NCBI RefSeq assembly: GCF_024734665.1
Contig: NZ_CP102931.1
Span: 1,176,001-1,240,000, forward strand
Direction: 5' to 3'
Length of the DNA stretch: 64,000 nucleotides
From: Variovorax paradoxus
GTDB taxonomy: Bacteria; Pseudomonadota; Gammaproteobacteria; Burkholderiales; Burkholderiaceae_C
Part shown: piece by piece, positions 21,973 through 60,147 of the stretch
How positions within the stretch are numbered: position 1 is the first letter of the stretch
How the letters are laid out: every line of letters begins with the position of its first letter
Translations under genes and position numbers: made by a program
The notes under the pieces: generated by a model
What the model was told of the DNA's origin: nothing
The model's database searches: none
Seen by the model: the letters and a program-made list of their open reading frames with translations, nothing else

Positions 21973-22842
21973 TCATCGCTGCGCGAAGACCTCGATCTCG
22001 ACGCGGCGGTTCGGAGCGAGACAGTCGATCAGTTCTGCCCGCCGTGTCTGCGCGCATTGCACCTTCGGTTCCGACTCGCCCTTGCCCTGCACCTGCATGT
22101 TCTGCGCGGGCACGCCGGCCTGCACGAGATAGTCGCGCACGGTGTTGGCGCGCGCCAGCGAGAGTGCCTGGTTGTAGGTGCTGCTGCCGAGCCGGTCGGT
22201 GTGGCCAGTGACCCTGATCGTGTCCACTGACTTGACGCTGCCCTTGATGTCGCTTGCCAGTGCGTCCAGCTTGCGTCGCCCTTCAGGCAGCAAGTCGGCC
22301 AGCGAGCGGCCGTCGAAGCGGAAGAGGCCGTCGGCGCCGAGCGTCGTCTTCGCAGGAGCAACCGCCGGCTGAGCGGCCGCGGCAGGCCTCGTCACCACGG
22401 GTGGCTTGAGCACATCCGCGCAGCCCGGCCCCTTCCAATACATCCCGTTGGTCAGCACGTCTGCATTGAAGCGAACCATGTACTGGCAGGTGATGTACTC
22501 CGGGCCCGCGCCCGTGCGGAAGTGAAAGATGTAGTTCCATTCGCGCACGCCGCCCAGCCCTTCGCTGAAGTGCGGAAAGCTCAGCAGCTCGCGCACCTGG
22601 TCCTTGCCCAGGCCGGTGCGCATGTTGCGCAGGGCCTCGATGCTCGGGAACGCGCCCTGCTGCCATTTGGCCGAGTTCAGCGCAGGAAAGTCGTCCTCCT
22701 TCGGTGGGGGCGGGTTCTCCGCAGCGGCCCGGGCCTGCATCTCCGGCGTGATGGTGTAGCTCGGGCTGGCGCAGCCACCGGCCAGCAGTGCCGCGAGGCA
22801 GAGAACAGTGAAAGGGGTCTTGGCTTGAAGAAGCTTGTTCAT
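21973..22842 (-). CDS. TpgA-like BamE/OmpA-domain peptidoglycan-binding lipoprotein
   Basis: 289 residues. A signal peptide ends in a lipobox (LLAGGC, Cys24). A BamE/SmpA-like domain follows (about 70-155: MRTGLGKDQVRELL, REWNYIFHFR, ITCQYMVRF). The C-terminal OmpA domain (about 185-289) has TGHTDRLGSSTYNQALSLAR, the peptidoglycan-binding signature. The domain pair matches TpgA, the partner of the trimeric autotransporter AtaA in Acinetobacter. The gene sits 32 bp downstream of a trimeric autotransporter gene on the same strand, so the role in anchoring and surface display of that adhesin is well supported by context. ATGs at 22863 and 22890 are alternative starts that would push the lipobox further in. 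Confidence 0.88.
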   Translation of the reverse strand: MNKLLQAKTPFTVLCLAALLAGGCASPSYTITPEMQARAAAENPPPPKEDDFPALNSAKWQQGAFPSIEALRNMRTGLGKDQVRELLSFPHFSEGLGGVREWNYIFHFRTGAGPEYITCQYMVRFNADVLTNGMYWKGPGCADVLKPPVVTRPAAAAQPAVAPAKTTLGADGLFRFDGRSLADLLPEGRRKLDALASDIKGSVKSVDTIRVTGHTDRLGSSTYNQALSLARANTVRDYLVQAGVPAQNMQVQGKGESEPKVQCAQTRRAELIDCLAPNRRVEIEVFAQR

Positions 22843-22874
22843 GATGGAGTTCGTCCAGTTCATTCGTACGGCGA

Positions 22875-25800
22875 TCAGTTGAAGACCCATTCCGCGCCCA
22901 CGGTGGCGCCCACGCCGGCACGGCTGGTGGCCACGCCGCCGGTGATGCTCCAGGCGTTGTTCTCGGATGTGCGCCGGAAACTGACGCCCACCGCGCTCTG
23001 GCCCTTGAAGGAGCCCGCGCCGATGCGCATGACCGTCTTGCCCGGAACGTAGCTTCCGGGCATCTGCAGCGCCATGGCCGCGGCAACGCCTGCATAGGCG
23101 TTCTTCTCGACTCCGTCGAGGCGGTCGCTGAGGGCGTTGATGCGGTTGTTCAGGCCGCCGCTGACCGCATTGAGCTGGTTGACGTTGACCGCGTCGGTGC
23201 CCGCCACGCCCGGCGCCACGTTGTGCACGGTGACGGGGCCGGTGGCATTGCTACCGCCCATGGTCACGCTGTTGTAGTTGGTCGTACCGTCCGCGTTGGT
23301 GTCGTACTTGACCGTCGACTGGTCGATCACTGCCACCTGGCCTTGCACGCCCCGCAGTTGCGAGACGTTGACCGCGTCGCTGTCGGCCGTGCCCGCGGCC
23401 ACGCCGGTGATCTGCCGGAACTGGCCGTTGGCCGCATCGCCCACCGACACGGCCGCCAGCGTGCTGGTGGTCGCGCCGATGGCAATGCGCTGCGCATCTG
23501 TGGCGGTGGGCGGCACGTAGCCTGCCACGCCTGCAGCAGTCGAAGCCACCGAGCCGGCTCCCAGCGCCACGCCGCCGGCTTGCGTCACGCTGGTGCCCGC
23601 ACCCAGCGCCACGCCCTGCACCGCAGCGGCCGACGACTGCGTACCCAGCGCGATGGAGTCGGCCAGGTGCGAGGTCGCGCCCTGGCCGATTGCAATGCCG
23701 CCCGGTGCGCTCTGCTGCACGATGGCACCATTGCCGATGCCCACGCCGTTGTTGCCGTTGACCACGGTCTGCGGGCCGACCGCCACCGACTCCGTGCCGA
23801 TGGCCAGCGAGTCGGCCGCGGTGGAGTTGGCGTGGAAGTACTGGATGGGCGTGACCGCGAACGACTGCAGCGCGCCGCTGAGCTGGCGCACCGTGACGGC
23901 GTCCTGCGCCTGGGTGCCGTCGGCCACGTTGGTGATCTGGCGGTAGGTGGTGGCGCTGCCGACCGAGAGGGCGCCAAGCAGCGTGCGGTCGGTCGTGTTG
24001 AAGGGGATCAGCGAACTGCCTGCGGGAATGTTGCCTGTGCTGCCTGCGATCGCGCGGTCGGAGACGGAACCCGCGCCGAGGGCGACCCCGCCGTTGACGG
24101 TCGAGCTGGCGTCCTTGCCCACGGCGACAGCGTCGGCAGCCTGCGCGCCGAGGTTGTCTTCATTGCCGCCACCGGTGGATTGGACGCTGAAGTACCTGAT
24201 CTTGTTGGCAGTGACGGTGGTGCTGAGGTCCTCGATCGACTGATTGGTTGCGGACAACTGCGAGCCGTTGATCGCATCGGTCGAGCTGCCGGAGATCCGG
24301 CCGGCCGCCACGTTGGTGATCGTGCGCTCGCCGCCGAACGTGCCGACGCTGACAGTGCCCACCGGTGCAATGCCCTGGAAGTTGTAGACCGTGCCGTTGA
24401 TCGTCGTGCTCGGCGTCGCCACTGCCGTTGCCGTGACCGAGCCCGCACCCAGTGCCACGCTGTTGGCGGTGCCGGCCGTGGCGCCCAAACCCATGGCCAC
24501 GCTCGAGGCACCTGCGGCCGTTGCGTTCTTGCCCGATGCGATGGCATCGGCGCCGGTAGCGCCGTCGTTGGCTTCGTTGCCCCCGCCTGTGGAGTTGACC
24601 TGGTAGTACCTGGTCTTGCTGCCGGCCACCGTGGTGGTCAGCTGGTCGATATTCACGGCATCGGTACCTGCCACGCCGGGAGCCACATTGGTGATCACCT
24701 TGCTGCCGGCGTCGATGCCGGTCAGCGTCACGCTCGGACCGCCCACGATGGTCAGGCCGTTGTTGTCGATCTTCGTGTTGCCGGTGGTCACGGAATTGAA
24801 GGTCGGATCCGCCACCACATCGACCCTGATCTGGTTGCCCGTGCGCGTGACGGTCGTGTTGCTGCCGTTGGCGAAGTCCGCGGTCCCGCCCGGCGCAATA
24901 TTTTGCGGCGCCCCGCCGTTGGCGCTCAGGTTCCACCCCTTGCCCGCCGTCGTTGCCACGTCGGCGATCGCCGAGTTGGTGGCGGACAGTTGCGAGCCGT
25001 TGATCGCATCGGTCGAGGTACCGGAGATCCGCCCGGCTGCCACGTTGGTGATCGTGCGTTCGGCGCCCGCCGAGCCGACGCTGACCGTGCTCGTTGGCGT
25101 GGTGCCCTGGAAGGTGTAAGGCGTGCCGTTGATCGTTATGCCTGCTGTTCCGACCGCGGTCGCCGTCACCGAGCCCGATCCCAGCGCCACGTCACCAGCA
25201 TTGTTCGCCACCGCCGTGTCGCCGAACGCTACCGCGCCCGCAGCCAGCGCCTTGCTGGTGCTGCCGATGGCCACGCTGCCCTGGCCGACCACGGTGTTCT
25301 GGTAGCCGATGCCGACCGCGCCCTGCGCCGCCGTGCCGGGCACGCTCACGTCCTGGCCGCCGCCGCCGACCTTGTTGGTGTTGCCCATGGCCACGGAGCC
25401 GTTGCCGGTGGCGGTGTTGTCCAGGCCATTCGCGATCGCGCCGTCACCGGTTGCGGTGTTCGGGTCGCCGATTGCAACGGCGCCATTGCCGCTGGCGACG
25501 TTGCCCGAGCCGATGGCCACCGCCTTGCCACCGGTGGCCCTGGAACTGTTGCCGATCGCGACTGCATCTGCGGAGTCGGCGACGGTGCTGGTGCCCATTG
25601 CGATTGCATTGGCTGCAGAGGCCTTGGCGCTGTTGCCGATCGCGACCGCCTGCGCCGCGGATGCATTGGCGAGCGAACCCACTGCGGTGGCGTTCTGGCC
25701 GCTCGCAGCCGAGCCGAATCCCAGTGCGGTTGCGCGCGTGACGGTTGCAGCAGCGTTGTTGCCCATCGCCACGGTCCCGTCGGCCGCGGCGTTGGCTCCC

Positions 25801-27053
25801 GACCCCGCCGCGACCGAGCCGACTCCGCTCGAGAGGGCTTGATTGCCCATGGCCAGCGAGAAATCCGCCGAAGCATTGGCGAGGTTGCCGAGCGCTGCCG
25901 AGCTTGTTCCTGCCGCGTTGGCCGACGTGCCGATGGCTGCGGCATCGGCGCCTACGGCGTTGCTCCCCCAGCCGCCAGCGAACCCGCGCAAGCCGCTGGC
26001 CGTCGAGCTGACACCGACCGCTGTGGAGTTCGCGCCCGAAGCATTGGCAAAGGTGCCCAGGGCGCTGGCGCCGGCCGCGGTGGCATTGGCGGAAGCGCCG
26101 AGCGCGACAGCATTGACGTTGTTTGCGAGCGTGCCCGTCCCCAGCGCCATTGCAGAGGTGCCCGAAGCGACCGCAGTCGGCCCGACAGCCACCGCGCTTT
26201 GCCCGGTCGCCTTGCTCTGGAAGCCTATGGCTGAGGCGTTGAGCTGGGACGCCGTCACATCCGTGCCGATGGCAATGGCGCCAACCGCGGTGGCCCCCGT
26301 TCCCGCGACGGTACGCGAGCCGATGTAAACCGAGTTCAGCTGGGACGCGATCGACTGGAAGCCGACAGCGATGGCGTTCTGGGCGCCTGCGGTTGCGGTG
26401 TTGCCCTGGGCAACGGAATCCAATGCGGCGGCATTTGCCTGGAATCCAAGGGCGAGGCTGCGCAACCCGGTTGCCCTCGCGGTAACGCCGATGGAGGTTG
26501 CGTTGTCCCCGCTGGTGAGGGCCTGACTGCCAACGGCGATGGCATTGCCGCCACTCGCGGTCACGTCCGTGCCGATTCCGATGGAGCCCCCGCCCAAGGC
26601 GCCCGTGGTGGCCCCGGTGCGGGCGCCCAGATAGATGGAATTGACGCCCGTGGTGTAGGCCTGAAAACCCAGAGAAATGGAATTCTGTGCAGAACTGAGG
26701 GCGTTGTACCCCACTGCGAGCCCGCCGAGTTGTTGGGCTTGCGAGAGAGAACCAAGCGCCGTGGCCCCGATCCCCGAAGCCTGGGAGCTGAGGCCCATGC
26801 ACGAGGCGGTGCTGTTGTACGCGTTGAAGGGTGATGCCGAGCAGTCGACCGACTGCGCCTGCGCCAGCGAGGACCATCCGGCCCCGCCCATCGCCAGCAG
26901 CGCGGTCATGAGCCCCGCGCGCAGGCGCCCCGACGGGGGCAATGTAAGCGCGGCACGACTACCGCTGCGCTTGCCGCAGGCGCGAGTGTTTTCCGACGCC
27001 GCTACCCAGGCGCCAAGGGATTCGTTCCAGAGCGAGCGATAAGTTGTGTTCAT
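22875..27053 (-). CDS. YadA-like trimeric autotransporter adhesin
   Basis: 1392 residues. An extended signal peptide begins MNTTYRSLWNESLGAWVA and ends near AQAQ (about residue 66). The passenger is built of many Ala/Gly/Ser YadA-head repeats (pattern AxAxGxxAxA/S), interrupted by neck/connector motifs such as TDAINGSQLSATN (three copies) and GTDAVN(I/V)xQL. A last neck and short coiled coil (LNNRINALSDRLDGVEKNAY) leads to the C-terminal YadA anchor of about 90 residues ending in WVFN. It is exported by Sec, trimerises in the outer membrane and mediates adhesion or autoagglutination. The ATG at 27053 gives the exact extended signal peptide. It is followed by a TpgA-like gene and preceded by an unusually AT-rich upstream region. 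Confidence 0.96.
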   Translation of the reverse strand: MNTTYRSLWNESLGAWVAASENTRACGKRSGSRAALTLPPSGRLRAGLMTALLAMGGAGWSSLAQAQSVDCSASPFNAYNSTASCMGLSSQASGIGATALGSLSQAQQLGGLAVGYNALSSAQNSISLGFQAYTTGVNSIYLGARTGATTGALGGGSIGIGTDVTASGGNAIAVGSQALTSGDNATSIGVTARATGLRSLALGFQANAAALDSVAQGNTATAGAQNAIAVGFQSIASQLNSVYIGSRTVAGTGATAVGAIAIGTDVTASQLNASAIGFQSKATGQSAVAVGPTAVASGTSAMALGTGTLANNVNAVALGASANATAAGASALGTFANASGANSTAVGVSSTASGLRGFAGGWGSNAVGADAAAIGTSANAAGTSSAALGNLANASADFSLAMGNQALSSGVGSVAAGSGANAAADGTVAMGNNAAATVTRATALGFGSAASGQNATAVGSLANASAAQAVAIGNSAKASAANAIAMGTSTVADSADAVAIGNSSRATGGKAVAIGSGNVASGNGAVAIGDPNTATGDGAIANGLDNTATGNGSVAMGNTNKVGGGGQDVSVPGTAAQGAVGIGYQNTVVGQGSVAIGSTSKALAAGAVAFGDTAVANNAGDVALGSGSVTATAVGTAGITINGTPYTFQGTTPTSTVSVGSAGAERTITNVAAGRISGTSTDAINGSQLSATNSAIADVATTAGKGWNLSANGGAPQNIAPGGTADFANGSNTTVTRTGNQIRVDVVADPTFNSVTTGNTKIDNNGLTIVGGPSVTLTGIDAGSKVITNVAPGVAGTDAVNIDQLTTTVAGSKTRYYQVNSTGGGNEANDGATGADAIASGKNATAAGASSVAMGLGATAGTANSVALGAGSVTATAVATPSTTINGTVYNFQGIAPVGTVSVGTFGGERTITNVAAGRISGSSTDAINGSQLSATNQSIEDLSTTVTANKIRYFSVQSTGGGNEDNLGAQAADAVAVGKDASSTVNGGVALGAGSVSDRAIAGSTGNIPAGSSLIPFNTTDRTLLGALSVGSATTYRQITNVADGTQAQDAVTVRQLSGALQSFAVTPIQYFHANSTAADSLAIGTESVAVGPQTVVNGNNGVGIGNGAIVQQSAPGGIAIGQGATSHLADSIALGTQSSAAAVQGVALGAGTSVTQAGGVALGAGSVASTAAGVAGYVPPTATDAQRIAIGATTSTLAAVSVGDAANGQFRQITGVAAGTADSDAVNVSQLRGVQGQVAVIDQSTVKYDTNADGTTNYNSVTMGGSNATGPVTVHNVAPGVAGTDAVNVNQLNAVSGGLNNRINALSDRLDGVEKNAYAGVAAAMALQMPGSYVPGKTVMRIGAGSFKGQSAVGVSFRRTSENNAWSITGGVATSRAGVGATVGAEWVFN

Positions 27054-27491
27054 GAGCCCCATCCATCCGTTGGAAAACTACTGAATGGTCGTGAGGCCAT
27101 TCCACTTTAAGAAACACTTGGAAATCATTATTTCTAAATAAATCTTAGGAGGAAGTCAGGCATTTGCAACTAGTCGTGTTGCATTTTGGAGCCATTGTGT
27201 TGAATTGATTTAAATTCTATATCGGATATTGTTAATGAATAGTAATATTAAAATACTAATGAATTAAATGGTTATCACAGTCGCTTTATTTTTTCAATGT
27301 AGTTATTTTTCTGAATCACTATTTTGATATCGGTAGCGATAAAAACGTGATGCCACATATTGGTGCATCATTGATTTTGTTGAAGTTTTTTCTTAATTTG
27401 CGATTTCCTGTGAATAGTCATTCAACCGGGCCCGCCTCCTAGAATCGGGCAGTAGCGCTCGAACAATGGCGCGCGAATCAGGGAGTTCCAG
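27054..27491. promoter_or_regulatory. AT-rich divergent intergenic region
   Basis: 438 bp between the adhesin gene (leftwards) and the unknown gene at 27492 (rightwards). From about 27105 to 27420 it is strikingly AT-rich against the surrounding high-GC DNA, with runs such as TAATATTAAAATACTAATG near 27243-27261. No gene or RNA is recognised. It should carry both promoters. The composition is what xenogeneic silencers (H-NS/MvaT-like) bind, so silencing of the adhesin is a reasonable inference. Confidence 0.6.
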
Positions 27492-28319
27492 ATGGCCAAC
27501 CGTTCCTATCTCTACAGCGTCAGCAATCGGCCCGGCTCATATGCCGACCGCCCGGAAACAATTTCGGGCCTGTCCGAATGGCCGTACGACGTTCCGTTCA
27601 TGTACCGGCTTCTCATGTCGGGCGATCCGCAGTTGTGTGCCTCGCTGGTGTCGGACGGCTTCGATGACGACGAGCCGGAGCACAAGGTCAGGCTCCATGC
27701 GATCAGCAGCAGCTTCGACCCGGGCTTCGAGCGCGTGCGGCGTTTCATCGACGTCGTGCGGTCTCTCCTGGCGGCGCAAGCATCGGCGCCCGAGCCACAG
27801 CCTGCCGTTGCAGCGCAGCCGGTGTCTTTCCTCGGGCGTCTCAAGCGGCTTGTTTCGCCACAGACGGAAACCGCCCCCGCTGAGCCAGCGAGTGCGTCCA
27901 CGGCATCGGTGCATCTGCCGGTCTGGCTCGACGAGACGATCGCCTTCCTCGAAGCCCATCGCGACCGCTACCTGCTGCTGGAGACGATCGAGCTCGACAC
28001 CATGTCCGAGTCAGATGAGGCGGCGCTGCGAGCCTGCGTGGAGCAGGAGATCGCGCGATGCCTGCGCGTGGGCGCCGCCATCGATGCCCTGCCGGCCGAC
28101 ATCGCTGAGGCGGGGCGGCAGCTGAAACAGGCAACCACGCAGAAGTGCGCCGCCCCGCTCGACGCCTTTTTCGGGCTGCGGCTGGACGATGACTGCGACA
28201 GCACCCGCACCGGCGCCACGGAACACCCGCTCGGCTTGCAGTGGTCGGAGGTGCTGTATTTCGGCCTGTGGAACCGGGCCGAATTCGAGGCGGAGCGCGG
28301 TCAGTCAGCCGCTGAGTAG
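27492..28319 (+). CDS. Protein of unknown function
   Basis: 275 residues, beginning MANRSYLYSVSNRPGSYADR. It is soluble, with no signal peptide or membrane helix. The N-terminal 60 residues (SGLSEWPYDVPFMYRLLMSGDPQLC) and the C-terminal end (GLQWSEVLYFGLWNRAEFEAE) look conserved in style. The middle is Ala/Pro-rich (residues 95-135), so it probably has two globular parts joined by a linker. I recall similar uncharacterised proteins in pseudomonads and Burkholderia but no function. An in-frame start lies slightly upstream in another frame only. Its TAG abuts the TGA of the convergent PPTase gene with no spacer. Confidence 0.75.
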   Translation: MANRSYLYSVSNRPGSYADRPETISGLSEWPYDVPFMYRLLMSGDPQLCASLVSDGFDDDEPEHKVRLHAISSSFDPGFERVRRFIDVVRSLLAAQASAPEPQPAVAAQPVSFLGRLKRLVSPQTETAPAEPASASTASVHLPVWLDETIAFLEAHRDRYLLLETIELDTMSESDEAALRACVEQEIARCLRVGAAIDALPADIAEAGRQLKQATTQKCAAPLDAFFGLRLDDDCDSTRTGATEHPLGLQWSEVLYFGLWNRAEFEAERGQSAAE

Positions 28320-29111
28320 TCAGCTGCCCGCTGACCGGCGCGTCACCGTGCCCTGAAATTCCCCGAACGACGCAAGCAGCGGCGTTGCCTTCCAGCACAA
28401 GACTTGCACGTCTTGCGGTTGAGTTCGCTCAAGACAGAGGGCCACGGCATGCGCGTTGTCCGGCTGAAGCTGCCAGAACTGCCATCGCGCCGCGGAATCT
28501 TCGAGGCTGTCCTCGAAGTCGATTGCCACGCTGTGGGCACCATCGAAACTGAAGGAAAACCGGTCCAGCGGCAGAGACAGCCCCATTCCGCGCGCCTTGA
28601 TATAGCTTTCCTTGAGCGTCCAGAGATCCCAGAAGCGTGAAGGCTGAAGCCCGGCCGGAAGCTGCTGGAGTGCCTTCGCCTCCCTGGCGGAGAAGAAGTT
28701 CTCCGCAATCTCCAGCGGGGCATTCCTTGCCGTGTGCTCGACGTCCACGCCCACTTCGCGCTCCACCGTCAGCGCCGCCACGATGAGCGAGGCGCTGTGC
28801 GAAATATTGAAGCGAAGGCGCTGCGCCTGAGGCAGTGCGTTGGCGATCCGCGGGCGCCCATAAGCGTTGTTCTCGAATTGCCAGTCCTGCGGGGCGACGG
28901 GCGCATAGCAGGAGAGAAGCGAACGGATCAGCCCCCGCGTCATGAGATACCGGCGCCGGTCACGGGCGAAGTGAAAGCGTCCGTGCCTTTCGCGCTCTTC
29001 GGGCGCCAGCAGAGCCATGCCCTTTTCTTCGCAGGTGGCATCGTCGTCCTGTTCGGGGACGTACAGGTGCCACAGGTGGACCTGGTGCGAGTCGATCTGC
29101 AGTTGTTGCAT
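28320..29111 (-). CDS. 4'-phosphopantetheinyl transferase, Sfp type
   Basis: 263 residues. It moves phosphopantetheine from CoA to carrier proteins of polyketide, peptide or fatty-acid synthases. Motifs in order: GRPRI, FNISHS, GVDVE with the Mg-binding Asp-x-Glu, and FWDLWTLKESYIKARGMGL with the catalytic Glu and Lys. The two-domain length fits the Sfp/Gsp class rather than the AcpS class. No carrier-protein or synthase genes adjoin, so its clients are elsewhere. The ATG at 29111 was chosen because the 45 residues before it have no family likeness. Confidence 0.92.
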   Translation of the reverse strand: MQQLQIDSHQVHLWHLYVPEQDDDATCEEKGMALLAPEERERHGRFHFARDRRRYLMTRGLIRSLLSCYAPVAPQDWQFENNAYGRPRIANALPQAQRLRFNISHSASLIVAALTVEREVGVDVEHTARNAPLEIAENFFSAREAKALQQLPAGLQPSRFWDLWTLKESYIKARGMGLSLPLDRFSFSFDGAHSVAIDFEDSLEDSAARWQFWQLQPDNAHAVALCLERTQPQDVQVLCWKATPLLASFGEFQGTVTRRSAGS

Positions 29112-29390
29112 TCGCAATTCTTGCTCGGGTGGCGCGATCTTCCATGACGCCAGCGTTCTTATTTTCCGGCCTTCAGTTCGGCTTAAGGTTGCCGGCCGAT
29201 ACTCGGGTTGACGGTCTGCTGGCGTTGGTAGAGGTCGCCCAGGCACCCGCCCATTGGTGGCGGTTCCTCGAGGCTGGCGATCGTCACATTTTCAAGCGGC
29301 CCCGGTTCCACGCCCGGTATTTCGTCGACGAATGGACGACCCGGCGCCGCCGCGGGGACCGTGGGGACGACTCCCAGGCCTGACAGGTTC
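29112..29390. other. Intergenic gap with a hairpin
   Basis: 279 bp with no convincing gene. A 10-bp stem, CTCCCAGGCC (29371-29380) with GGCCTGGGAG (29400-29409), straddles the stop codon of the regulator gene to its right. It may act as the end of the flgM operon transcript, but no T tract follows on the minus strand. The PPTase promoter should lie nearer 29112. Confidence 0.5.
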
Positions 29391-30230
29391 CTACGCCCGG
29401 GCCTGGGAGGCCCGGGAGATTTCCCCCAGCCAGATCGGCTCGTTCGACGTATCCGGAAATCCCGAGTCGTCCACGGTGCCCGCAATCGGCGAGCCCGGCA
29501 CATGGCGAAGCTCGTAGCCCCGTCCGTACACCGAGTGCAGCACGAACTCGCTGTCCTTGTGCAGCGACAGCTTTCGGCGGATGTTCGCCACGCAGCAGTC
29601 GAGCACCCGGCTCCTGCGCTCGACCTGCGAGTCCATCCATAGCGAGCCCAGCAGCCAGTCGCGCTCCAGCAGCCGGCCGGTATTGCGAAACAGCAGCAGC
29701 GCCAGCTCGAACTCGCGCGGCTTCAGGCGGATGTCCTGCCCCTTGTGAACCACCACCTTGCGGCTGCCGATGAACTGGTAGTCACCGAACAGCGCATTCA
29801 CCGATGGCGGATGCAGCAGCGTTTCGTTGCGCCGCAGCGCTTCGCGCACGCGCAGCTCCACCTCGAAGTCGTCGACCGGCAGCACCGCGAAATCGATGCT
29901 CGCGCCCTGTGCTTCGGGCTCCGCCGCCAGCAGCACCTCGGCCAGCAGATCGCGCTGCAGTGCGTTGGCAACCAGGAAGACCGGCAGGCGCAGCGCCTTG
30001 CACATCGACGTCAGCACCGGCCACGCGCCCTCGTCCTTCAGCACGACCAGCAGCAGGTCGAAGTGGCTGCCGTGCGTGCGCGTTACCGCGCGCAGAAAGT
30101 CGTCGCTGCTGTCGAAGGGAACCGGCGTGCAGCCCATCAGGCCCAGACTGTGGCCCCACGCCTGCGCCTGGGCCTCGTCGCAACCCACCATGGCCACCTG
30201 GCGCGAGCCGCCGTGAGTGTCGTTGTTCAT
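29391..30230 (-). CDS. OmpR-type winged-helix regulator with degenerate receiver domain
   Basis: 279 residues. Residues 10-132 follow a receiver fold (VAMVGCDEAQ, FDLLLVVLKDEG, LPVFLVANA, FAVLPVDDF). The phospho-acceptor Asp is replaced by Val63, the conserved Thr/Ser is Val87 or Ala88, and the conserved Lys is Leu117. Phosphorylation control is therefore unlikely. Residues 145-243 are a clear OmpR/PhoB DNA-binding domain (RLKPREFELALLLFRNTGR, RRSRVLDCCVANIRRKL, VYGRGYEL). A tail of about 35 residues follows. No sensor kinase adjoins. It is the last gene of the flgA-flgM-flgN-mini-YadA series, 50 bp downstream of the mini-YadA gene on the same strand. Target genes are unknown. Confidence 0.88.
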   Translation of the reverse strand: MNNDTHGGSRQVAMVGCDEAQAQAWGHSLGLMGCTPVPFDSSDDFLRAVTRTHGSHFDLLLVVLKDEGAWPVLTSMCKALRLPVFLVANALQRDLLAEVLLAAEPEAQGASIDFAVLPVDDFEVELRVREALRRNETLLHPPSVNALFGDYQFIGSRKVVVHKGQDIRLKPREFELALLLFRNTGRLLERDWLLGSLWMDSQVERRSRVLDCCVANIRRKLSLHKDSEFVLHSVYGRGYELRHVPGSPIAGTVDDSGFPDTSNEPIWLGEISRASQARA

Positions 30231-30280
30231 GATGTCGAAGGCTTCCGTGTGTTGGTGGTGGTGAGGGTGGAAGGGCCGCC

Positions 30281-30703
30281 TCAGCGGTCGCCCGCGCGCG
30301 GCAGCTTCCAGCCGATGCCGGCGTTGAAGCCCCAGTCCCGGCCAGCGTTGGCGATGGCCATGCCCCAGGCCATCTGTCCGTCGTCCGACAGGGTCTTGAA
30401 GCCGAGGCTCGCCGCCGTGTAGCCCTTGTAGGTGCCGACGGCCAGGCCCACCGTCTTCTCGCCGGGGTAGAGCGTGGGCACATACGCAGCCGTCATGGCC
30501 ACAGCCATCGCCGTGCCCGAGTAAGCGATGCGTTCCACGTCGCGCAGGACCGCGGGTACTTGGTTCAGCTGGCCGAGGTTGACCGCGTCGCCCGGCAGGA
30601 CGCCCGGCGCCACGTTCGTGACAAGCACGCCGTCCGCCGCGCTGGCCACGCCATGCAGGGCGGTGGCGCACAGCCACAGCATGACCAGCAGCCCGGCCCG
30701 CAC
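30281..30703 (-). CDS. Passenger-less YadA-type trimeric anchor protein
   Basis: 140 residues from a GTG at 30703, five bases after the flgN stop. The N-terminus is a signal peptide (about 22 residues, ending ASA). After it come only one neck/connector motif (NVAPGVLPGDAVNLGQLNQV), a very short helix (VLRDVERIAYSG) and the YadA C-terminal anchor (AMAVAMTAAYVPTLYPGEKT to GIGWKLPRA). It has no head and no coiled-coil stalk. An ATG at 30682 is possible but would remove the basic n-region of the signal. A trimer would form a 12-stranded outer-membrane pore with almost nothing outside. It lies within the flgM-flgN operon, downstream of a sigma-28 promoter. The role is unknown. Confidence 0.85.
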   Translation of the reverse strand: MRAGLLVMLWLCATALHGVASAADGVLVTNVAPGVLPGDAVNLGQLNQVPAVLRDVERIAYSGTAMAVAMTAAYVPTLYPGEKTVGLAVGTYKGYTAASLGFKTLSDDGQMAWGMAIANAGRDWGFNAGIGWKLPRAGDR

Positions 30704-30708
30704 GGCGA

Positions 30709-31167
30709 TCAGCCCGCCGCGAGGCGGTTGCCGCTGCTCGCCTGTGTCTTGCGCACGCCGTCCGGTCCGTAGAACAGCTGCGCGCTGGCCTGCAGGAAGT
30801 GCAGGGCCTGTTGCGTGAAATCGAGATGCGCGTAGACCATCGAGCCGTTGCGCAGGTTGTGGCTTCTTGCCTGCCCGGCCAGCTCCAGCAGCGCCGCCCA
30901 GGCTTGCGCTGCGTCTGGGCCGCCGGCTGCCGCGGCGGCATCGGCGCCCGCGCGGCCAGGCCCGAAGCCCAGCGCCGCCTGCATGGCTTCGCGCTGCGTG
31001 TCCAGCTCGGCCATGCGGTCGAGCAGCACGGTTTTCTGGCCGGCAATGGCCGCCAGGTCGGTGAATGCGCCGTCCGACATCGCCTGGGCCTCGCGGTCCA
31101 GCACCGACAGGAATTCCTCGATGCAGGCAGTCTCGGTGCGCAGGTGGGTCAGCAGGGTGGGTTTCAT
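30709..31167 (-). CDS. flgN: Flagellar export chaperone FlgN
   Basis: 152 residues, mostly helical, and matching FlgN in the order flgA-flgM-flgN. It escorts the hook-junction proteins FlgK and FlgL to the export gate. The family-like parts are LRTETACIEEFLSVLDREAQAM at the start and the long second helix (AMQAALGF onwards). An Ala/Gly-rich insertion lies at about residues 70-90. Its start overlaps the flgM stop by 4 bp. Confidence 0.88.
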   Translation of the reverse strand: MKPTLLTHLRTETACIEEFLSVLDREAQAMSDGAFTDLAAIAGQKTVLLDRMAELDTQREAMQAALGFGPGRAGADAAAAAGGPDAAQAWAALLELAGQARSHNLRNGSMVYAHLDFTQQALHFLQASAQLFYGPDGVRKTQASSGNRLAAG

Positions 31168-31487
31168 TCGCTGCCGCCCTTGCCGCTGTTCGGGTCGAGC
31201 TTGGGGTCCAGCAGGTCGCGCACGCTCGCCAGCAGGCCGTCGGCGATGCGCTCGGGGCGGATCTGGTAGCGCCCCGCGCGGATGTCCTCGCGGATCGCCG
31301 CCACGCGGGCCGCGTCGAAATCGCTGGCAGTGCCCGCGGCGCTGGGCAGCGAATGAACGTGCGCGGAAGCCGGCGCCGCCTCCTTGGGGCGCTGGGCGGC
31401 ATCGGCGCCGGTCACCGTAGCCGCGCCCGGCGCGGGCGTTGGGCGATGAGGGGGCGTGGCCGAAGGGGCGGGTTGATCGATTTTCAA
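31164..31487 (-). CDS. flgM: Anti-sigma-28 factor FlgM
   Basis: 107 residues. The N-terminal half is Pro/Ala-rich and disordered. The C-terminal half holds the sigma-28-binding helices (ARVAAIREDIRAGRYQIRPERIADGLLASVRDLL), as in FlgM of Salmonella. It holds FliA inactive until the hook is complete, when it is exported. A sigma-28 promoter precedes it at 31513-31539, giving the usual feedback loop. Confidence 0.93.
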   Translation of the reverse strand: MKIDQPAPSATPPHRPTPAPGAATVTGADAAQRPKEAAPASAHVHSLPSAAGTASDFDAARVAAIREDIRAGRYQIRPERIADGLLASVRDLLDPKLDPNSGKGGSE

Positions 31488-31512
31488 GGTGATTCCTCAG
31501 GGGCTGACCCGT

Positions 31513-31539
31513 ATATCGGCAGCTTGGGCAAGAACTTTA
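31513..31539 (-). promoter_or_regulatory. Sigma-28 (FliA) promoter for flgM-flgN and downstream genes
   Basis: Read on the minus strand: TAAAGTTC at the -35, an 11-bp spacer, and GCCGATAT at the -10. This differs from the enterobacterial consensus TAAAGTTT-N11-GCCGATAA at two positions. It lies 26 bp upstream of the flgM start. Confidence 0.9.
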
Positions 31540-31561
31540 GGCAGGGCGTGCACGAAGCTGC

Positions 31562-32254
31562 TTACTGGGCGAGCTGGATCTGTCCCTCTTCGTCCGCCAC
31601 GCCGCTGACCAGCCGCCCGTCGCGGGTCTTGGCCTGCACCACGGCGCCGACGACGGCCCCGGTCATGGCCTTGCCCTCGGTGCTGACGACAAAGCCCTGG
31701 CCCTGCGCCACGACCTTCACCGCCTGCCCCTGCTGGATGACGGTAACGCCGCGTACCAGCTCCTTGCGCAGCGGCGCGCCCGGCGCCACGCGGTTGACCG
31801 TCACCACCCCGGCCAGTTCGGCCGCGCTGGTGATGACCGAGCGCGGCAGCTTCGTGAGGTCGCCGGTGCGCTCGGTAACGTCGCCTGCGCCCAGCGGCCG
31901 GCCCGAATCGATGGCGCGCGCGGCAACGAAATAGCTGCCTTCCACCGCCACATGCGCCTGCACGAAGCGCGTCCACGGCCGCTCCGCCTGGCAGCGAACG
32001 CCCACCGACACGCGCCCCCAGGGCGTCGCGCCCGGCGGCAGAAAGGCTTCGGGCGCATCGCAGGCGGGCAGGTTGGAGGTGCTGCGTGCGTCGATGTTGA
32101 TCGACACCTTGCCCGGCAAACCCGCCGTCTGCACCTGCAGGTATTTCTCGATGACCTTGTTGGCGTCGGCAGTGTCGGCGGCGAACGCGGACGCCGTGCA
32201 GGCCACGGCCACCAGTGCCGGCAGGCCGCAGTTGCGAAGCTTGAAAAAGGTCAT
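31562..32254 (-). CDS. flgA: Flagellar P-ring assembly chaperone FlgA
   Basis: 230 residues, exported by a Sec signal peptide (ASAFAAD, cleavage about residue 24). The SAF-like domain (SYFVAARAIDSGRPLGAGDV) and the C-terminal beta domain (QGQAVKVVAQGQGFVVSTEG, GAVVQAKTRDGRLVSG) are typical. It acts in the periplasm to help FlgI form the P ring. The ATG at 32254 was preferred to a TTG four codons upstream. It is divergent from flgB, with the shared control region between them. Confidence 0.93.
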   Translation of the reverse strand: MTFFKLRNCGLPALVAVACTASAFAADTADANKVIEKYLQVQTAGLPGKVSINIDARSTSNLPACDAPEAFLPPGATPWGRVSVGVRCQAERPWTRFVQAHVAVEGSYFVAARAIDSGRPLGAGDVTERTGDLTKLPRSVITSAAELAGVVTVNRVAPGAPLRKELVRGVTVIQQGQAVKVVAQGQGFVVSTEGKAMTGAVVGAVVQAKTRDGRLVSGVADEEGQIQLAQ

Positions 32255-32473
32255 CGGTGTGTGCAAAAGAATGGCTTGTATAGCGGCGCGTCATGACAAG
32301 AGGACGCAAGCCGCCGCCCGGAAATTCTAGAAATCCGCCCGCCGATCGAAGGTGCGAGCAGCAGGCGAAAACCCCCTTTGTTCGGGCGATTGCAAACGCG
32401 ATGCATGCATAGACTCGCTTTCCATCTGTCGCTGCGCTTGCGCATTGGCGACGCCTCAACGGATGGAAAAAAG
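32255..32473. promoter_or_regulatory. Divergent flgA/flgB control region
   Basis: 219 bp between the leftward flgA and rightward flgB genes. No sigma-28 or sigma-54 element with correct spacing could be read here. Class II promoters (FlhDC-activated sigma-70 type) are expected but cannot be placed from sequence alone. Confidence 0.5.
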
Positions 32474-44075: not shown

Positions 44076-44102
44076 TCAAGTTCAGCGATCCGATGCCGAT
44101 AA
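44076..44102 (+). promoter_or_regulatory. Sigma-28 (FliA) promoter before cheW copy 2
   Basis: TCAAGTTC at the -35, an 11-bp spacer and GCCGATAA at the -10; the -10 is a perfect match to the enterobacterial consensus. It lies in the 77-bp gap after receptor 2 and should drive cheW copy 2 and receptors 3-6. Confidence 0.9.
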
Positions 44103-55629: not shown

Positions 55630-58600
55630 ATGTCAAAGGAAATCGCGAGAGGAATAAGAGGACTCAGGTACATCGTGCGCGGGGTCTTCGCAATTTACAT
55701 CGTGGTTCTTTGCGGTGGTGCCTTTGCAGGTCCTAATTCCACGTGGAGCTTTACCACTCAAGCTGATGCTGAAGCTGATTGCTTGCGGACAATCGGCATG
55801 CCGAACCAAGGTTGGCTGTCAGCAACCTGCACGCTTTCGTCCGGATACTATGTTGGCTACTACAACTGGTACACGCTGCTAATCACCAGAGACACGGGCG
55901 TGTACGAGCAATGGAATCTCTTTCCCGGATTGCAGCCAAAGCCGTGTGCGCAGTGCGAGAAGAGCGCAAAGACTGAGGCCGCACTTTCTGCGACTCAACC
56001 TGCACCAGGCCAAAGTTGCCGGGCTGATGGGCTTTTCACCAAGAATCCTATCGATCTGGTGACTGCAGAGAAGTATCGCAATGAGGTCGATTGGCGCGAT
56101 TCAGGGCCATCCCCCCTTGGTTTTTCGCGCATATACAGAAGCAACTGGGGATTCGACCCCAATCATCCGAATGTTGGCCTAGGTCAAAGCTGGACCCACA
56201 GCTACGCGTTTCGTCTGGTTGCAACGCCAAGTGGAAATCCGGTGGATGTTGCCGTAGTCGCACCAGAAGGAAACGTCCGCCTCTTTAGTAGAAGCAGCAA
56301 CTCAACCAGTTGGATAACCACTGGAAGTGGGGACTCTCTGACGCAGCTCTCCTCCGGAGGTTGGTTCTACCAACGAGCTGATGACAATGTTGTTCTTACT
56401 TTTGATGCTGCGGGGAAGATCGTAAGTCAGATGGAGCGGAATGGCTGGATCACGACCTTCGCTTACGACAGCACCGATCGACTAGCCGTGGTTGCCAATG
56501 GCTTTGGTCGAAGCCTCGTTATTTCTTACAACTCGTTGGGGCAATTGGGCTCCATCGTGACTTCTGATGCTCGACTGATTGGGTATTCCTATGATGCACT
56601 GGGCAGACTGTCCTCTGTAACCCGCGCTGATGGCACATCGCGCACTTTTCTGTACGAGAACACTGCATTTCCGCAGGCCTTGACAGGAATCAACAGCGAA
56701 TCGGGAGACCGCTGGGGGACGTTTACATACGATGCGAAGGGCCGACCTATAACGAGCGAACTGGCCGGTGGCGCCGAGCGGTATGAGGTTGCTTATCCAG
56801 CAAACTCAAACCCTGGTTCGACGGTGAAGGATCCGCTTGGTACGACCCGAACCTACTGGTATGACACCAGGGAGCGTAGCGCTGTCGTGACCAGCGGCTC
56901 GTTGCCATCATCTGATGGCGCAGCAGACGCGAGTAGTCGCGTACAAAACACCTACGGTCTTACGACATCAGAGACTGACTTCAAGGGTTCCGTTACTACG
57001 ACGACATGGGATACCGCCCGTCGCCTTCCTACGACCGTGGTGTACGCCTCTGGCACTCCCGACGCACGGACAGTGACAACTCAATGGCACTCGACCTTTA
57101 GCCTACCAATCTTGGTAACTGAGTCTGGACGCACCAGCGCCTATAACTACGACGCGCTCGGCAACACGTTGTCGAGAACCATCACCGACACGGCGACCAA
57201 CAAGGCCCAGCTCTGGCAGTGGACCTACAACACGTCGCAGCTCGTTGACACAGCCACAGAACCCAACGGCGCAGTCACCAGTTACACCTACGACACCCGG
57301 GGCAACGTCCTCACATCGACGAACGCGCTGGGTCACGTCACTACGTACACCTACGATAACGCCAACCGTGTTGCAGGTTCGACAGCCCCCAACGGCCTCG
57401 TTGCCACCTACACCTACGACCTGCGCGACCGCCTGCTGACCCAGACTGTCGGTGGACAGCAAACCACGATCACCTACAAGCCCTTTGGCAATGTCGAAAC
57501 AGTGACGCTGCCCACAGGCCTCGTCCAGACCTACACCTACGACGCAGCTCATCGACTCACGGGCTGGAGCAACAACCGAGGCGAGAGCGGCACCTACACC
57601 CTGGACGGCATGGGCAATCGCACCGCCGAGCAGATCAAGGACAGCGCCGGTAATGTCGCCTGGAGCGTGGCTCGGACGATCAATAGCATCAACCGACTGT
57701 CAAGCAAGACCGAAGGCACAAACCAGACTGAATCCTTTGAGTACGACGGCAACGGTGATTTGGGTCGAACAAAAAATGCATTGAACCAATACACGCAGTA
57801 CGGCTTAGACAGATTGCGTCGTCTGAAGGATTTCACCAATGCTGAAGGACGGACCGCGTCCTTCAAGTACAACGCCCTGGACGCCGTCACCGAAGCCAAA
57901 GACTTCAAGGGCGTGGCCACCGCCTACACCCGCGACGCCCAAGGCAACGCGACGGCCGAGAGCAGCGCCGATACGGGTGGAGCGAGCACCCAGTACGACA
58001 ACCTCGGCCTGCCCAGCCAGATCACCGACGCCCTGGGCCAGGCGACAACCATCACCCGCGATGCCCTGGGCCGCCCGACCGGCCTGGTCTTCGCCGACGG
58101 CAAGACCACCACCCTGCGCTACGACCTCACGGCCAACAGCAAGGGATACCTGTCCGAGATCGTCGACCGCAGCGGCACCACCGAGTACACCCGCGACACC
58201 TTCGGCCGGGTCACCCTCAAGAAGCAGACCCTGGCCAACGGAAGCGTCCAGCAGGTCAGCTACGCCTACAACCCCAACGGCACGCTGGCCAGCATCGGCT
58301 ACCCCAACGGCGGCGGCGTGCTCACGCACAGCTACGACAGCACCGGTCGCCTCACAGGCCTGAGCCTGAACGGCAACCCGCTGGTCACCGGCATCGCCTG
58401 GAACCCGCTGGGCCAGCCCACGGCATGGAGCTGGGCGTTCGCGAGCCCCTCCATCGCAGCCAGCCGCACCTACGACACCGCAGGCCGCCTGACCGCCACC
58501 GAGTTCAGCAGCTACACCTACGACGCAGCCGGGCGCATCACGAGCCTCACGCAGAACCTCTACCAGCCCGGCGACACCGACCCGACCCACAGCACCGTCG

Positions 58601-60147
58601 CCAATGCCAACGTCACCTGGAGCGTGGGCTACAGCGCGGTGGGGCGCATCGTGAGCTTCAACGCCACGGGCAACACGGCCGGCTTCGGCTACGACGCCAA
58701 CGGCAACCGCAGCAGCACCACCCGGGCACTCAATGGCACGAGCACCAACCGCACCTACACGGTGGGGTCAGCAAGCAACCAGCTCACGGGCTTCACCCAG
58801 ACCATCAACGGCGCGAGCAGCACCAGCGTCACCTACGGCTACAACGCCAACGGCGACCTGCTCACCGATGGCCTGCGCAGCTACACCTACGACGCTGAAG
58901 GCCGGCTGGCGGCAGCGACGACGGGCGCGACCGATGTCAGCCCGACCACGCGGTATGCGCACAACGCGCTGGGGCAGCGGGTGTTCAAGACGGAGCCGCT
59001 GTATCCGCCCAGCCAGGGCGATGAGGCCGACCCGGGCTTCATGCAGAGCCTGATCGCGTTCTTCACGAAGCTGTGGAGCCCGGCCAACAACCAAGCAGAG
59101 CAGTTGGGCTACGCGTATGTCTACGACGAGCAGGGCACGCTGATCGCGGAGGTGGGCAGCGGGGGCACGAACAGTGCGGGGCAGAGCCAGTACATCTATC
59201 TGCCGACGGGCAATGGGCCGATGCCGATTGCGGCGGTGATCAATGGCAACACCTACGCCGTTCACAGTGACCACCTGAACACGCCGAGGAAGCTGACGAA
59301 CGCAGACGGCCAGGCTGTCTGGCAGTGGGGCTACAGCGCGTTCGGGGAGGACAAGCCGACGCTGGCGAGGTACCGGTTTGCCAACACTGAAACAACACCA
59401 AACCCGGGCACCACGAGCATCTCGGAGGTGAAGTTCAACCTGAGGTATCCGGGGCAGTATGCGGATGAAGAGTCGGGGCTGTTCTACAACGGGTACAGGA
59501 CCTACATCCCGACCATCGGGCGGTATACGCAGGGCGACCCTATCGGGCTCGATGGTGGATGGAATCGGTTCGGCTATGTCGATGCGGACCCTCTGAATTG
59601 GGCTGATCCAGATGGATTGGCAGCGAAGCCCATGCAGCCACTTGATTTCGAGCCAATGCGAGGCGGCGGTGGTGGCCCGGGTGGTCCAACTGGACCAGTT
59701 GGCGGTGGGAATGGGCTGACGGGGGTCGGTCGTGGCGGCGGTGGTGGCACCGGTGGCGGCGGTAGTGGTACCGGTGGTAGTAGCGCCAGTGGTGGATTTT
59801 GTCCTCGGCTGCCGCAAGATGTTCGTGTAAACCCAACGCCGCCCCCACCGCTGCCGACCAATCGTCCAATCGGTAAGAGCCCAACCCAGAATCAGGCGGC
59901 GCAGGATGAAGTTAGGCGCATGCGTGAGGCTAACTATCGTGATATACGAGTTAACCAACAGCAAGTAGATGCGAACGGGACGCGAGTTGGAATCGGTCGG
60001 CCTGATGTTCAGGGTACAAACCAGGCCACAAGGAGGAGAGAGTATGTTGAATTTGATGGATCAAATTCAAATCGCGGCCCTGGGCACGCTGATCGACTCA
60101 ATGCAAATGATCCGAATGGATTGGTCGATCTACGAAGAATAGATTGA
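55630..60147 (+). CDS. Rhs/YD-repeat polymorphic toxin with Sec signal
   Basis: 1505 residues. A signal peptide (about 1-33, ending AFA) is followed by an N-terminal region with a DUF6531-like entry (NPIDLVTAEKYRNEVDW). Many YD repeats follow (GNxxxxTYDxxGRL style), then the Rhs core (DHLNTPRKLTNADGQAVW to DPLNWADPDGL, about residues 1213-1329). After the core come a Gly-rich linker (about 1340-1390) and a variable C-terminal domain with NRPIGKSPTQNQ, RPDVQGTN, YVEFDGS and GPGHADRLNANDP. No PAAR/VgrG or T6SS-like N-terminus is present, so export by Sec is suggested. The C-terminal part is likely the toxin; RPD...EFD hints at a nuclease, at low confidence. Candidate immunity genes follow at once. 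Confidence 0.92.
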   Translation: MSKEIARGIRGLRYIVRGVFAIYIVVLCGGAFAGPNSTWSFTTQADAEADCLRTIGMPNQGWLSATCTLSSGYYVGYYNWYTLLITRDTGVYEQWNLFPGLQPKPCAQCEKSAKTEAALSATQPAPGQSCRADGLFTKNPIDLVTAEKYRNEVDWRDSGPSPLGFSRIYRSNWGFDPNHPNVGLGQSWTHSYAFRLVATPSGNPVDVAVVAPEGNVRLFSRSSNSTSWITTGSGDSLTQLSSGGWFYQRADDNVVLTFDAAGKIVSQMERNGWITTFAYDSTDRLAVVANGFGRSLVISYNSLGQLGSIVTSDARLIGYSYDALGRLSSVTRADGTSRTFLYENTAFPQALTGINSESGDRWGTFTYDAKGRPITSELAGGAERYEVAYPANSNPGSTVKDPLGTTRTYWYDTRERSAVVTSGSLPSSDGAADASSRVQNTYGLTTSETDFKGSVTTTTWDTARRLPTTVVYASGTPDARTVTTQWHSTFSLPILVTESGRTSAYNYDALGNTLSRTITDTATNKAQLWQWTYNTSQLVDTATEPNGAVTSYTYDTRGNVLTSTNALGHVTTYTYDNANRVAGSTAPNGLVATYTYDLRDRLLTQTVGGQQTTITYKPFGNVETVTLPTGLVQTYTYDAAHRLTGWSNNRGESGTYTLDGMGNRTAEQIKDSAGNVAWSVARTINSINRLSSKTEGTNQTESFEYDGNGDLGRTKNALNQYTQYGLDRLRRLKDFTNAEGRTASFKYNALDAVTEAKDFKGVATAYTRDAQGNATAESSADTGGASTQYDNLGLPSQITDALGQATTITRDALGRPTGLVFADGKTTTLRYDLTANSKGYLSEIVDRSGTTEYTRDTFGRVTLKKQTLANGSVQQVSYAYNPNGTLASIGYPNGGGVLTHSYDSTGRLTGLSLNGNPLVTGIAWNPLGQPTAWSWAFASPSIAASRTYDTAGRLTATEFSSYTYDAAGRITSLTQNLYQPGDTDPTHSTVANANVTWSVGYSAVGRIVSFNATGNTAGFGYDANGNRSSTTRALNGTSTNRTYTVGSASNQLTGFTQTINGASSTSVTYGYNANGDLLTDGLRSYTYDAEGRLAAATTGATDVSPTTRYAHNALGQRVFKTEPLYPPSQGDEADPGFMQSLIAFFTKLWSPANNQAEQLGYAYVYDEQGTLIAEVGSGGTNSAGQSQYIYLPTGNGPMPIAAVINGNTYAVHSDHLNTPRKLTNADGQAVWQWGYSAFGEDKPTLARYRFANTETTPNPGTTSISEVKFNLRYPGQYADEESGLFYNGYRTYIPTIGRYTQGDPIGLDGGWNRFGYVDADPLNWADPDGLAAKPMQPLDFEPMRGGGGGPGGPTGPVGGGNGLTGVGRGGGGGTGGGGSGTGGSSASGGFCPRLPQDVRVNPTPPPPLPTNRPIGKSPTQNQAAQDEVRRMREANYRDIRVNQQQVDANGTRVGIGRPDVQGTNQATRRREYVEFDGSNSNRGPGHADRLNANDPNGLVDLRRID

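Follow-up and report, generated by a model that had tools for sequence, protein, structure and literature searches.

A conserved, passenger-free trimeric-autotransporter anchor situated within a flagellar operon of Variovorax

Judged from its sequence, the short gene called yadS here (yadS and YadS are labels of this study only) is a real, conserved variant of the anchor of trimeric autotransporter adhesins (TAAs, type Vc), and it sits within a flagellar operon. Its reading frame is on the reverse strand of the 64,000-nucleotide stretch of Variovorax paradoxus DNA that was analysed as a whole, i.e., the window, and YadS has so far been seen only in Variovorax among the sequences searched. TAAs reduced to the anchor were reported earlier from sequence in Brucellaceae, so that the anchor-only architecture itself has already been noted; according to the same source, extended coiled coils are found in sequences of about 200 aa, and the available part of that source makes no mention of a flagellar linkage or of a change in the β-signal (PMC7688925). 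The flagellar-operon version with an altered β-signal appears to be new, since the literature searched yielded no report of an anchor-only autotransporter from a flagellar operon or from Variovorax. In what follows, G denotes genomes of the genus set, L loci and P protein relatives; some of the named loci and G genomes are the same genomes.

The gene, its protein and its operon

The preliminary description of YadS as a signal peptide, one neck motif and a complete YadA anchor without a passenger agrees with both Pfam and the sequence (Table 1). The N-terminus, VRAGLLVMLWLCATALHGVASA followed across the cleavage site by AD, is by eye an ordinary signal peptide, in agreement with a hydropathy scan of relatives that share it; Pfam found no extended signal peptide region (ESPR). 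One neck motif alone stands between the signal peptide and the anchor, with neither head nor stalk in sequence or Pfam matches, and beyond YadA_stalk and YadA_anchor no other Pfam family was matched at E ≤ 0.01. The PF03895 score of 34 bits exceeds the Pfam cut-off of 22.7. The monomer model, with a mean pLDDT of 51, consists of a signal helix, a single long helix and four strands; in this low-confidence model the anchor strands span residues 83-92, 95-105, 112-121 and 126-133 and are preceded by a helix at residues 53-72, i.e., the helix and four C-terminal β-strands of a TAA anchor. A Foldseek search with the model gave four PDB matches at E ≤ 0.001, which are the anchors of Hia (3emo, 2gr7, 2gr8) and AtaA (9vnj), and a profile of 26 family members matched the Hia anchor chains by sequence as well (3emo, E 1.6e-6; 2gr7, E 1.9e-6). 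The match to TAA anchors is thus not due to chance, given these structure matches and the 40 protein relatives found at E ≤ 0.01. A longer gene reading through flgN was rejected. Although the open frame extends upstream as far as 31402, it would run over flgM and flgN, which are read in another frame, and the relatives have short starts.

Table 1. Features of the yadS locus in window coordinates
Feature	Position	Strand	Details
yadS, short YadA-anchor gene	30281..30703	-	GTG start at 30703, stop 30281-30283, 140 aa
YadS signal peptide, residues 1-22	30638..30703	-	cleavage site by eye; hydropathy scan of relatives; model helix 2-17
YadS single neck/YadA_stalk motif, residues 28-49	30557..30622	-	Pfam PF05662, E 9.4e-8
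YadA anchor of YadS, residues 80-133	30305..30466	-	Pfam PF03895, E 3e-8; low-confidence model
YadS six-residue tail PRAGDR after Leu134	30284..30301	-	Leu134 at the position of the terminal aromatic in TAAs
flgA	31562-32266	-	FlgA by Pfam
Sigma-28-type promoter site upstream of flgM	31513..31539	-	TAAAGTTC-N11-GCCGATAT; 14/16 consensus matches
flgM (anti-sigma-28 factor)	31164..31487	-	Pfam PF04316, E 8.2e-11
flgN (flagellar export chaperone)	30709..31167	-	Pfam PF05130, E 3.9e-26
OmpR-type regulator, degenerate (pseudo-)receiver and winged-helix domain	29391..30230	-	279 aa; 50 bases 3' of yadS
Phosphopantetheinyl-transferase gene	inside frame 28320-29246		start ambiguous; residues from 28320-29147 scanned by Pfam

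The genes follow one another in the order of transcription as flgA, flgM, flgN, yadS, the regulator gene and the phosphopantetheinyl-transferase gene, with a gap of 5 bases between the end of flgN at 30709 and yadS; flgB, flgC and flgD, presumably so named since place is their support, run in the opposite direction from about 32450. A position five bases after flgN and downstream of a sigma-28 promoter had been proposed earlier, and the coordinates and the score of the promoter site, which is of sigma-28 type by the consensus that we assume for this factor, bear this out. A site scoring 13-16 of 16 stands in the flgM region of 62 of the 63 flgN loci (the miss is G095, with 10), and the best score among 315 letter-shuffled controls was 12. 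No terminator-like stem was found in 28200-31700. No sigma-70-like promoter was found there either, a result of little weight, since shuffled sequences yield only 0.2 promoters on average. As read from the sequence, yadS thus has the upstream sigma-28-type site, the tight spacing and the terminator-free course of a class 3 (sigma-28) operon; it is placed behind the sigma-28-type flgM-flgN promoter site, and its co-transcription with flgMN is putative. Elsewhere in the window, further sigma-28-type sites lie at 44076 (+) and 51889 (+), scoring 14 and 13 of 16; a DUF7822 gene (27492-28319, +), with matches at several yadS loci and none at others, adjoins the phosphopantetheinyl-transferase gene, and an RHS-repeat protein of 1505 aa with DUF6531 is encoded at 55630-60147 (+).

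Distribution, gain and loss of yadS

The 40 relatives returned by the protein search are from Variovorax wherever a genus is named, and several are the tails of full TAAs. However, 27 of them are 139-165 aa long, so that the possibility raised in the preliminary description, that all homologues are longer and this gene is a truncation, does not hold. Nor is the neighbourhood peculiar to a single strain, as intact YadS (a full-length match of 210 bits or more) is present in 13 of the 101 genus genomes searched, the genus being read from the named loci; the lower-scoring matches, among the matches listed, are other anchors. In all 13 intact cases yadS lies between flgN and the gene for the pseudo-receiver regulator, and the same arrangement recurs in 10 of 11 named loci, the eleventh (L045) being a TAA. 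The named carriers are V. gossypii, V. guangxiensis, V. boronicumulans, V. paradoxus 110B and Variovorax sp. strains.

A recurrence beside flgN in other Comamonadaceae, which had been suggested as a check, was not seen. Within a sample of 399 genomes from 141 genera of the family, with the 10 best candidates scored per genome, nine had a YadS match at E ≤ 1e-12 and six of these lie outside Variovorax; none of the six is full length, all being partial from model position 18 or later, and no flgN was found within the 2.0-3.3 kb examined around each. The regulator, for which six candidates were scored per genome, was matched at E ≤ 1e-30 in three of the 399 genomes, all Variovorax. On plasmids, a tblastn search in which records near the window's genome may be missing gave 8 records, seven from Burkholderia and one from Variovorax, with a highest identity of 42.7%. 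Finally, among 125 short YadA-like proteins (the 40 of the first search and 85 new ones from 120 listed of 382 hits), a simple hydropathy rule picks out 33 with a signal-like N-terminus, 30 of them members of the YadS family or its decayed or cut forms. By their sequences, self-contained anchor-only proteins are therefore uncommon among the listed short YadA-like proteins, many of the others there being fragments. One of the proteins met with, P0104, is a mini-TAA of 218 aa with an ESPR, one neck and an anchor, i.e., a nearly passenger-less protein of another TAA type.

Of the 101 genomes, 63 have a flgN match and 20 an orthologue of the regulator (394 bits or more). In a tree of flagellar proteins from 62 genomes, from which G095 was left out as it gave no flgA hit, these 20 lie together on one side of a branch with a bootstrap of 100. 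The regulator gene stands directly behind flgN or yadS in 19 of the 20, and in G061 it is at the end of another contig. Within this clade YadS is intact in 13 genomes and absent in five (G035, G044, G049, G080 and G089), where the regulator follows directly 3' of flgN. In G099 (L169) what is apparently the last strand alone remains, in a 145-base gap after flgN, and in G061 (L149) a decayed yadS without the neck motif lies just after flgN and is cut by the contig end. The regulator thus outlives intact YadS in seven of 20 genomes, and YadS, lost or decayed in these seven, is dispensable. A single gain of yadS followed by losses is our reading of these sequence patterns; parsimony requires three changes, and, as support is weak (66-89) on several of the clade's inner branches, the number of losses is provisional.

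The altered C-terminus and the A-type adhesins

Like the type Vc TAAs (YadA, Hia, AtaA, UpaG), YadS has the neck, the helix and the four-stranded anchor, with both PF03895 and PF05662, and it is placed among them by its match to Hia in sequence and to Hia and AtaA in fold; it differs in having no head or stalk, no ESPR match, a place in a flagellar operon and a leucine with a tail where these proteins have an aromatic residue. This last change is consistent. In each of the 14 distinct YadS C-termini, a count without incomplete matches such as those of G061 and G099, Leu stands in place of the β-signal's terminal aromatic and is followed by a tail of 6-9 residues that begins with Pro. The 33 distinct TAA C-termini, by comparison, have Trp or Phe as their last or last-but-one residue without exception, and none of them has Leu with a tail. 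YadS thus lacks the aromatic ending of the β-signal that marks a TAA anchor. Both Leu134 and Pro135 are among the residues of the 38 columns that are invariant across 26 aligned family members.

The anchors nearest to YadS in the tree are those of a set of Variovorax TAAs called A-type here, i.e., with an anchor of 200 bits or more, a limit that was chosen after the scores had been seen (the lowest above it is 207 and the next non-YadS match 152). The YadS sequences form one clade (100/99), and the fork joining them to the A-type anchors (87/82) is drawn open, so that YadS may nest inside or beside the A-type anchors. In contrast to YadS, the A-type TAAs are long, carry ESPR, head and stalk, lie at other loci and have anchors ending in ...GWKWK. 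An example is the 2043-aa protein at L182:6010-12141, with adjoining DUF2827 genes; Pfam found an ESPR in it and in the 1395-aa TAA of the window, and no ESPR match in the frame scanned for a 666-aa A-type TAA. Two or three DUF2827 genes, possibly serving adhesin modification, flank A-type TAA genes in two genomes (L182:3652-5927 and L182:12644-13780; L186:7252-9548). The window's own full-length TAA (22875-27062, -; 1395 aa, ESPR-head-stalk-anchor) has a frame that overlaps by 16 bases a gene with OmpA/BamE domains that resembles TpgA (21973-22890, -), whose TpgA model score of 183.7 bits is below the cut-off of 350. No TpgA above the NCBI cut-off was found in any of the 101 genomes, and TpgA-like matches at E ≤ 1e-30 occur in 61 of them. 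A TpgA-based tether was considered as a general function of YadS and is unlikely, since such a match is missing from the YadS-bearing G027 and G041.

Every one of the 13 YadS genomes has an A-type TAA, and none of the 46 flgN-positive genomes without an A-type TAA carries YadS. A-type anchors occur in 30 of the 101 genomes. These comprise all 13 YadS genomes, both genomes with remnants, G035 and G033, and a further 13 in which flgN was not found. Within the 20-genome clade an A-type TAA is present in 15 of 15 genomes with YadS or a remnant and in one of five without; Fisher's test gives p = 0.001 with the two remnants counted as present and 0.007 as absent, values which ignore descent and for which no significance is claimed, as the co-occurrence comprises only two or three independent pairs, is confounded by descent and has no statistical power. 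YadS is 60-63% identical to the A-type anchors of the window's own genome, and other YadS are 52-64% identical to the same reference A-type anchor. Strands 1-4 are 52, 51, 42 and 87% identical between the two groups and the helix 70%, the strand values being unchanged in a repeat run with 14 YadS and 21 A-type sequences, the latter chosen without using the last strand. As strand 4 is both the β-signal strand and the inter-subunit strand, its identity does not separate these two uses, and its conservation may reflect recognition by BAM alone.

The preliminary description offered three roles, and of these the one as a partner for another TAA stands best, in view of the nearest A-type anchors, the altered β-signal and the co-occurring genes. 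On the reading that we tentatively put first, while holding it at well under even confidence, YadS is a secreted subunit without a passenger that forms mixed trimers with A-type subunits and reduces the display of adhesin while the cell builds flagella. The gene would have arisen from an A-type adhesin that lost its passenger. When sigma-28 is active, YadS subunits would reach the periplasm and co-assemble with full-length A-type subunits; the mixed trimers would have fewer than three passengers and no functional fibre, so that adhesin display would fall during motility. With its altered β-signal, the short subunit would need a full-length partner to enter the outer membrane, and fewer empty homotrimers would form. 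In motile cells YadS could thus hitch-hike on A-type adhesins and act on them as a dominant-negative or dosage-setting subunit. A more specific version, a sigma-28-timed dominant-negative subunit with a weakened β-signal that hitch-hikes on the full-length adhesin, so that swimming cells make crippled mixed trimers and shed or withhold fibres, is less probable still and is put forward as a suggestion. TAA transmembrane domains are reported to be sufficient for trimerisation and able to form mixed trimers (PMC3297439), and mutation of the C-terminal Trp of UpaG to Ala impaired targeting and was rescued by wild-type subunits in stable heterotrimers (PMC5670179). The truncated construct of the latter study, HA-UpaG-delta-2, resembles YadS in having a signal peptide, a short passenger and an anchor, and it trimerises, with the Trp mutant rescued in heterotrimers; it differs in being an engineered laboratory construct that keeps about 80 passenger residues. 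Taken together with the loss of the passenger, the sigma-28-type site, the altered terminal residue and the co-occurrence, this mixed-trimer literature makes a hitch-hiking subunit the most economical active role. Several observations speak against mixed trimers. G035 and G033 have flgN and an A-type TAA and no YadS; G099 and G061 both keep A-type TAAs with their YadS remnant or decayed; strand 1, which would be expected to pair with strand 4 of the neighbouring subunit, is the 52%-identical one; the constraint on YadS is looser than that on flgN; and the β-signal may still be functional, Leu being hydrophobic. Every step beyond the secretion of YadS is something that we infer, and a homotrimeric barrel and a decaying leftover are close rivals.

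The first of these, a homotrimeric outer-membrane protein with a 12-stranded barrel and three helices in the pore, which would serve as a small pore, a plug or an envelope stabiliser in motile cells, is possible and on balance improbable. It agrees with the completeness of the anchor and its match to the structures of isolated Hia anchors, and with the report that about 80 C-terminal TAA residues suffice for a stable trimer (PMC5670179). In addition, the neck motif is visible in all three kinds of N-terminus in the YadS alignment, although it has no Pfam score in P0030 and is below the cut-off in P0020. However, just about 25-30 residues per chain would lie outside the barrel, and we know of no function for such a passenger-free barrel. 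The altered β-signal, together with an A-type adhesin in all 13 genomes and a last strand so nearly shared with it, speaks against a plain pore.

A slowly decaying leftover is slightly less probable again: a TAA would have lost its passenger after landing behind flgN, the selected unit would be the regulator, and the anchor would be tolerated or have a minor role. The absences, the remnant and the decayed copy in the regulator clade fit this account, as does P0041, a relative of the decayed form that has no Pfam match at E ≤ 0.01. Pairwise dN/dS, from simple Nei-Gojobori counts with the signal-peptide ends of six YadS trimmed, is above that of flgN in seven of nine pairs. However, it is below 0.5 in all nine (0.17-0.48), pairs that share branches; for the same pairs it is 0.04-0.39 for flgN, 0.17-0.75 for flgM, 0.09-0.42 for flgA and 0.13-0.34 for the regulator. 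In the genomes compared, YadS has therefore been kept under a looser constraint than flgN, and other genomes have lost it. The retention of reading frame, anchor and tail in 13 genomes and the invariant columns also argue against mere decay.

The regulator and the meaning of a passenger-free anchor

In the regulator encoded behind yadS, Pfam finds the winged-helix domain only, Response_reg giving no hit up to E 10. The Asp and Lys at what we take to be the phospho-receiver motif positions are lost in 20 of 20 orthologues, and each is kept in eight of 10 control regulators, so that by its sequence this OmpR-type protein lacks a phospho-accepting receiver. It is possibly a phosphorylation-independent flagellar or adhesin regulator. 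That yadS and this gene form a reduced adhesin and regulator cassette, in which a TAA-linked regulator arrived along with the TAA and now couples flagellar timing to adhesin genes, YadS being a signal or a bystander, is quite improbable and was rejected as the main account. A TAA anchor lies within 6 kb in five of the 40 top non-orthologous relatives of the regulator vs none of 20 lower-scoring controls, which is weak, and three more TAA-near regulators (L171, L172, L181) come from regions chosen for a nearby TAA anchor; a TAA followed by a regulator on one strand is seen in L170, L171 and L172. However, no anchor lies within 6 kb of any of the three closest paralogues (45%), and none of 17 A-type TAAs (L020-L036) has the regulator within the roughly 1.5 kb examined. 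A second scan for regulator-TAA neighbours used too narrow a motif pattern and gave 0/60 regions, even among those with known TAAs. The flagellum-linked structure proposed in the preliminary description, here taken as part of the flagellar base or a collar around it, is the least credible account: operon position and the sigma-28-type site are all that favour it, and 50 of the 63 flgN-bearing genomes of the genus have no intact copy (two of them with remnants), no full-length relative occurs outside Variovorax in the family sample, and the closest relatives are adhesin anchors.

If the mixed-trimer reading were true, YadS would be a protein-level link between flagellar assembly and adhesin display that needs no second messenger, and a natural dominant-negative for trimeric autotransporters; in its hitch-hiking form, it would switch cells between motility and adhesion post-translationally, by means of a piece of the adhesin itself. 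Even without mixed trimers, YadS is a natural, selectively maintained counterpart of the anchors whose structures were determined on fragments cut from Hia, and it can be used to ask what a passenger-free anchor does.
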